From: Candidatus Rifleibacterium amylolyticum
GTDB lineage: Bacteria > Muiribacteriota > Ozemobacteria > Ozemobacterales > Ozemobacteraceae
Length of the DNA: 64,000 nucleotides
NCBI GenBank assembly: GCA_009917695.1
Contig: JAACJG010000003.1
Span: 248,001 to 312,000 of the forward strand
Direction: 5' to 3'
Position numbers and translations under genes: made by a program. Shown in pieces: positions 43,118 to 44,350 of this stretch; positions within the stretch are counted from its first letter, which is position 1, and every line of letters starts with the position of its first letter. Below the pieces are notes generated by a model. That model was not told the origin of the DNA, ran no database searches, and saw nothing but the letters and a program-made list of their open reading frames with translations.

Positions 43118-44350
43118 ATGAAAAAAATCAAATCGATTGTCTGCCTTTTGCTGTTTCTTAACTGTTGTGCGTTTTCACCGGTGTCAGGCGGCTTTAAAAC
43201 TGGTGATTCGGCTGATAATGTCGAAATACAGCTCAAGGCTGAAGCTGAATCTCTGATGACGCAGACAAACAACGTCAGTTCCAGCAGCGAAGTGGCAAAA
43301 ATATGGAAATACGTCGAATACCTCTGGGATAAAGACCGGCGTCCCGAAGCCGGCCGATATATCGAAGCCGGTCTGACCTTCGAGCCCTTTAACTATTATT
43401 ATCAGGCAAAACTGGCTCTGGTTCTGGCTGAACAGGGACGGAACCGCGAGGCTTACGATCGGGCGCAGATCGTCTATGAAAAAGCCGAAGATGAAGAAAC
43501 TGTCGAGATGATTCTGCCCATTCTCAAAAAAAGTCTGCCGGCCCAGTTTAAAAGCATGGAAGCGGCTGAATTTGCCTCGCCAACAGTCGTTCTGGTAACA
43601 ATGGGCGAAGTTAACCATCTGCTTGTGCTTGAGTTGCAGCAGAAAATCAGCGAATATACCGGGCTTGCTGTGGTTGTTTTCAGTGAAACAGGCACTCCGC
43701 CGCCCCCTGACCGCAGTTTTTTTACTTCGGAAATCAGGAGAATGCGCCCGACCATTCTTGGTATGCCCGAGATGGTTGCCTGGTTGAACTCTCACAATAT
43801 AGCCACGGCGTCACTCGCAACCGACAATGAACTGTTCGTGAAAACCATGCAGCAGTTTCTCGAAGAAAACAACCCGGTGGCGGCAAAGGGTTTTAAAACC
43901 AATATGGATCTGGCGCGCCTGCGGCTGCAGCAATGGAGTTACGATTCGTTGCGTGATTATCTGGTCGCCATGGCCGCCCCGCACAGAAACGAAAAATGGC
44001 TGCTGATAGGCATAACCAGCTATGACATGTACATGGCTGATACCAATTATGTTTTTGCCGGCACCAATCCCTATGCTCAGGCGATAATCTCATATCGGCG
44101 TTTCATGAGCGATTTCAACCAGGAACCCGAGAATCGCAAGCGGCTGTTGTCGCGTCTGTTCAAACAGTTTCTGTCGGTATTCGGGCTGCTCAACGGTATG
44201 ACCCGTTGCACTTTTCCCGACTGCGCCAGGGTTTTTCCGCGTAATATCGCTGAGCACGACGAAAAGCCGGAATATCTGTGTGACGAATGCCGTCAGACTC
44301 TTGAAAAATTGCTCAAAACAAGGATCCAACCGAAACCAGCCCGTCGCTGA
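43118..44350 (+). CDS. Exported archaemetzincin-like protein lacking the catalytic motif
   Basis: 410 residues with a signal peptide (residues 1-24) and a helical N-terminal region, probably TPR-like. The C-terminal 230 residues follow the archaemetzincin plan: LLIGITSYDMYMADTNYVFAG matches the conserved strand before the active site. The family signature HExxHxxGx3Cx4CxMx17CxxC is kept only in part: Gly360, Cys364, Cys369, Cys388 and Cys391 are present, but the three zinc His and the Glu are Ser353, Leu357, Arg363 and Val354. So the structural Cys4 zinc survives while the catalytic zinc does not: a probable pseudo-protease. GAGG upstream gives the start. Confidence 0.75.
   Translation: MKKIKSIVCLLLFLNCCAFSPVSGGFKTGDSADNVEIQLKAEAESLMTQTNNVSSSSEVAKIWKYVEYLWDKDRRPEAGRYIEAGLTFEPFNYYYQAKLALVLAEQGRNREAYDRAQIVYEKAEDEETVEMILPILKKSLPAQFKSMEAAEFASPTVVLVTMGEVNHLLVLELQQKISEYTGLAVVVFSETGTPPPPDRSFFTSEIRRMRPTILGMPEMVAWLNSHNIATASLATDNELFVKTMQQFLEENNPVAAKGFKTNMDLARLRLQQWSYDSLRDYLVAMAAPHRNEKWLLIGITSYDMYMADTNYVFAGTNPYAQAIISYRRFMSDFNQEPENRKRLLSRLFKQFLSVFGLLNGMTRCTFPDCARVFPRNIAEHDEKPEYLCDECRQTLEKLLKTRIQPKPARR

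Follow-up and report, generated by a model that had tools for sequence, protein, structure and literature searches.

The window analysed here is a stretch of 64,000 bp from Candidatus Rifleibacterium amylolyticum, and the gene of interest occupies positions 43118-44350 of its forward strand: a complete open reading frame of 410 codons plus stop, with an ATG start and a GAGG upstream. From the translation, a PF07998 match above cut-off and orthologues in the genus, we annotate the whole as a putative exported TPR / pseudo-archaemetzincin. A divergent Asn_synthase-like PP-loop gene adjoins it, and downstream of the M54 gene lie genes for an arginase-family protein, a type IV leader peptidase and SecG; this downstream set is common to members of the genus only. 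Comparison of neighbouring genes across phyla revealed none that is conserved and no partner gene kept alongside, and with nothing in common, the neighbourhood was rejected as a clue to function. One exception was found, within Verrucomicrobiota only, where an ankyrin-repeat/CBM48 protein adjoins two closely related copies of the family gene. These neighbours (L107 8240-10705 and L109 5749-8037) are secreted ankyrin-repeat proteins with two C-terminal carbohydrate-binding modules of the CBM48/AMPK type.

Residues 296-397 match the Pfam Peptidase_M54 profile (PF07998) with 33.1 bits against a gathering cut-off of 24.4 (E 7e-8), and a phmmer search of the PDB returned the archaemetzincins 3lmc (E 2e-10), 2x7m (E 4e-7), 3zvs and 4axq. 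The score for the NCBIfam archaemetzincin subfamily NF033823 (68.5 bits) is below its cut-off of 145. AlphaFold2 was given seven sequences, the window protein aligned with six relatives, yielding a model with pLDDT 78.5; a second model from the same sequences, reordered around L047 from Verrucomicrobia, reached 82.5. Confidence is thus moderate overall (pLDDT 78-83, from seven sequences), and the strand beside the cleft (residues 306-318) is poorly predicted. In Foldseek searches of the PDB, archaemetzincins rank first for both models (target-normalised TM-score about 0.8 to 3zvs), with TPR proteins mostly next; the four best matches to the window-protein model are all archaemetzincins, aligned over about 240-260 columns. 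Gaps over an insert interrupt the aligned stretches, and the rmsd is large in some cases, so the result is to be read as a ranking with TM-scores and not as rmsd. An archaemetzincin had been proposed in the initial annotation from residue patterns, with a PF07998 search and a structure prediction named as checks; both came out in its favour, and at the level of sequence and model they confirm the protein as an M54 homologue.

The same order of elements is predicted in both models: seven TPR-like N-terminal helices, a beta-alpha-beta unit, a helical insert, three more strands, the long former active-site helix and a cysteine-bearing tail. The TPR-like domain covers residues 29-136 (43202-43525, forward strand, as are all features below), as delimited by the seven model helices, the family profile and the TPR_19 matches of relatives. 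The first beta-alpha-beta of the M54 fold spans residues 156-189 (43583-43684; strands 156-162 and 184-189, helix 167-181), as seen in the model and by Foldseek. An insert of about 70 residues, helical in the model (200-268; 43715-43921), is absent from intact M54 proteins in the family alignment. The M54 core then runs over residues 275-358 (43940-44191) by the model and the PDB alignment, ending in the former active-site helix (337-358). The picture of a C-terminal archaemetzincin half behind a helical N-terminal half therefore needs redrawing: the M54 fold is there, starting at about residue 155 with its first beta-alpha-beta at 156-189, and a signal peptide and helices do precede it, while the separate domain is only about residues 29-136 and the other helices belong to the M54 insert.

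In the PDB alignment, S353-V-F-G-L-L-N-G-M-T-R363 (44174-44206), followed by C364, stands opposite HExxHxxGxxHC. The three His and the Glu of this motif are present in 36/36 intact M54 domains of our family alignment and none is left in the window protein, just as had been read from the translation; the alignment to 3lmc and 2x7m agrees. The Met-turn methionine, kept in 34/36 intact domains, is also missing, its place being taken by Arg371 (44228-44230; CxM has become CAR, C369-A-R371). The window protein shares with archaemetzincins (M54, PF07998; AfAmzA 3zvs, MkAmzA 2x7m, 3lmc) the fold, the element order and a Cys4 site, together with the conserved residues D303, F313, S325, R328, R346 and D381; it differs from them in lacking the His ligands, the Glu and the Met-turn Met, and in adding a signal peptide, a TPR domain and the helical insert. 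With ligands, Glu and Met-turn missing, it cannot, on its sequence, be a metzincin protease, and it is probably non-enzymatic.

The Cys4 site consists of Cys364 (44207-44209), Cys369 (44222-44224) and Cys388-x2-Cys391 (44279-44290), reading C364-x4-C369 and C388-x2-C391 as the initial annotation had it, with the spacing of 3lmc and 2x7m; translation, PDB alignment and family alignment agree on all four. The argument that an intact Cys4 site marks selection for the fold holds for the window protein, but it does not extend to the whole inactive lineage: each cysteine is present in 14 to 17 of 18 members, yet the site is wholly lost in one relative (L105) and reduced to one Cys in three others (L110, L112, L115).

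The former active site of this TPR-bearing lineage has acquired residues of its own. No member retains the first His, the Glu or the third His, while the second position is still His in three (L061, L062, L089). At the third-His position, R363 recurs in 15/18, and the Met position carries R in 14/18 and R or K in 15/18; other conserved positions are Q350 (13/18), S353 (10/18), Y/F373 (18/18) and D381 (17/18), and P367, A370, Y/F373 and P374 characterise the lineage. By the alignment, R363 and R371 would form a pair of new basic residues at positions once beside the zinc. The strong conservation of S353, R363, R371 and D381 at or near the old site could speak for a site rebuilt as a different enzyme or around a different metal. 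We consider this quite unlikely: beyond those common to intact M54s no polar residue is invariant, relatives have G, A, W or T in place of S353, and the lost ligands have not been replaced by an HxH or a Cys/His cluster.

The N-terminus of the window protein reads as a probable Sec signal peptide (residues 1-25, MKKIKSIVCLLLFLNCCAFSPVSGG; 43118-43192), with a KK n-region and a hydrophobic core, in keeping with the export that had been proposed. Congeners end this segment in the AxA manner (FVAAAF, FTANAL), and some relatives show lipobox-like ends (FLGC in L103, ISSC in L102, FCAC in L113). For one congener (L046, 296-440), the frame extends upstream into an apparent dispersed repeat (RNEVTKQSH), making the true start uncertain. 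The TPR domain emerges at the family level: the window sequence alone has no TPR match in Pfam, but relatives score above the TPR_19 cut-off, and positions 56-121 of the family profile align directly with designed TPR proteins. With a profile of the TPR part alone, 17/19 inactive proteins are recovered and 0/38 intact ones; 7 of these 17 went into building the profile, so the independent count is 10/12. One of the two that it misses (L062) has a split reading frame. A Spirochaetaceae member (L102, 7394-9304) carries an additional N-terminal DUF1266 domain (112 bits) ahead of the TPR and pseudo-M54 parts.

Two complete congener orthologues (62% and 60% identity) have the same replacement, SVFG[LF]LNGMxRC; in a third orthologue from the genus, the contig end cuts the gene before the motif. 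Relatives in two other phyla mostly show S/A-x-x-G-x-x-x-G-x-x-R-C at this place. When 84,980 species genomes were scanned with two strict family peptides, the same architecture and loss came up in a Riflebacteria MAG of another family (L050), in two MAGs from Verrucomicrobia (L047, L048) and in one from Spirochaetaceae (L049); the scan also recovered a divergent protein from Methylobacterium (L051). We then searched 388 Verrucomicrobia-phylum and 393 Spirochaetes-phylum genomes with a C-terminal domain profile, at an E-value limit of 1e-8 that may miss more divergent members; carriers number about 12/388 (about 3%) and about 3/393 (about 1%), and 5/40 in Riflebacteria, the phylum of the window genome. 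Altogether some 20 inactive TPR-M54 genes are found in Riflebacteria, Verrucomicrobiota and Spirochaetota, a sparse but broad family, and the loss of the motif is common to all members of the TPR lineage (18 of them aligned). Among 299 Pseudomonadota genomes only the known divergent Methylobacterium gene was found. Plasmid and phage collections gave no match, and an origin from either was rejected.

A restored HExxH in close homologues would have pointed to a sequencing error, but the two congeners carry the same replacement. Between congeners, pN is 0.19-0.26 against a pS of 0.68-0.76 (near saturation), and differences at third codon positions outnumber those at second positions about 2.4- to 3-fold; this low pN and third-position excess indicate that the gene is under purifying selection. 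A few relatives do have broken genes (the frames of L111 7951-8901 and L106 7150-8344 are interrupted, by decay or assembly error). Given the full-length frame, the strong purifying selection and the recurrence of the replacement both in congeners and in other phyla, we give hardly any credence to a decaying gene or a sequencing or assembly error at the window locus, and rejected both pseudogene and sequencing error.

The tree of the family alignment (59 M54 domains) was built without the 11 columns of the active-site motif. One of its branches, with support 98/90, has the 36 intact M54 domains on one side and, on the other, the 18 inactive rows together with the Methylobacterium protein. Support is weak (37/83) for the branch uniting exactly the 18 inactive rows, since the position of the Methylobacterium row among them is unstable. 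The inactive label needs one change on this tree, from which we infer that catalysis was lost once in the lineage and that Riflebacteria, Verrucomicrobiota and Spirochaetota have since retained the inactive form. The Methylobacterium protein itself (L051 5560-6618, Methylobacterium sp. J-076) is exported and M54-like, lacks HExxH, CxxC and TPR, and keeps the lineage motif PRSLAEHDRKP; its placement is unsure, on a long branch.

Inactive archaemetzincins as such are already known, and to that extent the initial annotation, which knew of no description of such a class, needs correcting. Some archaemetzincins are inactive in vitro, and the function of the family is obscure (PMC3427221). CarG of Myxococcus xanthus is a non-proteolytic archaemetzincin in which HQx2Hx2Ex2HC and the Met are retained. 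It acts in transcription, in the cytoplasm and together with CarD (PMC8156234), through protein contact and without proteolysis (PMC8156234, PMC3427221). The window protein resembles CarG in its M54 descent, the predicted absence of proteolysis, the retained Cys4 site and, presumably, action through protein contacts (with CarD, for CarG). It also has a sub-threshold match to the NCBIfam profile for non-proteolytic archaemetzincin-like proteins, NF033824. A CarG-type transcription co-factor nevertheless has next to no likelihood: the NF033824 score is 44.7 bits against a cut-off of 250 (relatives 21-56 bits), and the window protein carries both a signal peptide and a TPR domain, whereas myxobacterial CarG is cytoplasmic, has lost only the Glu (to Gln) and retains three His, two zincs and the Met (PMC8156234). 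Membership in the CarG group was rejected on the score and on the absence of HQxxHxxExxHC with its three His; no carD is adjacent to the gene, whose neighbours are the PP-loop and arginase-family genes. In the open-access literature consulted, CarG and AMZ1 are the only doubtful or inactive archaemetzincins found, and no TPR form or exported inactive archaemetzincin is described. The TPR / pseudo-archaemetzincin lineage is apparently undescribed so far.

TPRs bind proteins, and the M54 cleft formerly bound peptides; an exported adaptor is therefore the simplest use for a protein combining the two. We favour, with a probability of roughly 60%, an exported, M54-descended pseudoprotease that lost catalysis once and serves as an adaptor, the TPR part docking and the former cleft no longer cutting. 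It would leave the cytoplasm by Sec, soluble in the window species and lipid-anchored in some relatives; its TPR would dock a protein partner, and the M54-derived domain may hold a polypeptide or an anionic group, uncut, in the former cleft. The binding-protein role proposed for it at the outset would agree with this. By analogy, it could work at the cell surface or in the periplasm as do NlpI and LbcA for Prc and CtpA. Both of these TPR lipoproteins serve as scaffolds for periplasmic enzymes (PMC5686067, PMC7049810, PMC11021448), and the likeness of NlpI (E. coli) and LbcA (P. aeruginosa PA4667), both exported, is functional and by analogy only: they have no M54 domain, LbcA has 11 TPRs, and their known partners are Prc, CtpA and peptidoglycan hydrolases.

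A narrower proposal, which we hold tentatively and regard as doubtful, is that in an ancient, so far undescribed exported TPR / pseudo-archaemetzincin family the zinc site became a conserved basic pocket; in the periplasm, this pocket would capture anionic ends of polypeptides or cell-wall groups. Somewhat less probable still is that the M54-derived domain serves purely as a rigid structural element with a ligand-free cleft, all binding being done by the TPR and the helical insert. Relatives do differ in the Cys4 site, at the second His position and in parts of the pocket, and besides the motif loss the strongest common feature is the TPR; but the new conserved positions cluster at the zinc motif and Met-turn (R363, P367, R371, Y/F373-P374), as if the site were still used.

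Pseudoproteases such as the iRhoms commonly modulate an intact protease (PMC6451368), and one Riflebacteria genome (G038) has two intact M54 genes beside the inactive one. The window protein might likewise be a decoy or allosteric modulator, in trans, of an intact M54 paralogue. We find this very improbable, since no second M54 gene was found in the window genome, which leaves no intact paralogue of its own to modulate, and other sampled carriers in Verrucomicrobiota and Spirochaetota gave the inactive gene only (E 1e-8). Under the favoured adaptor reading, a target from another protease family is possible.

Metzincins have a textbook fold defined by the zinc site and the Met-turn. A lineage that has neither, has gained a TPR domain and is kept in three phyla points to a second, non-catalytic use of the fold outside the cytoplasm, with the M54 fold probably reused for binding instead of cutting. 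Such a non-cutting sister lineage also offers a way to ask what the archaemetzincin cleft binds. Proteins of the family pass the Pfam M54 cut-off and are likely annotated as peptidases, an annotation that misleads.

We also note some other M54 proteins: (i) An exported or membrane-anchored subfamily with the zinc motif intact (mostly HE[TMA]GHMFGxxHC) and an NGxNxLxExD tail occurs in Riflebacteria, Verrucomicrobiota and Spirochaetota (L010, L021-L023, L026, L066, L068, L071-L082, L084-L086, L095, L096). Its members with HE[TM]GHMFGxxHC (L010, L021-L023, L066-L086 in part, L095, L096) resemble the window family in being exported or membrane-anchored M54s of the same phyla, but differ in keeping the zinc motif, lacking a TPR and forming their own clade (100/99 support). 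(ii) Two further M54 proteins, L008 (1306-1842) and L083, have destroyed zinc motifs (QEVAYLFGLSYC and LRAAGLALGLEQC, respectively); they lie outside the TPR lineage, and their losses are apparently independent of it.
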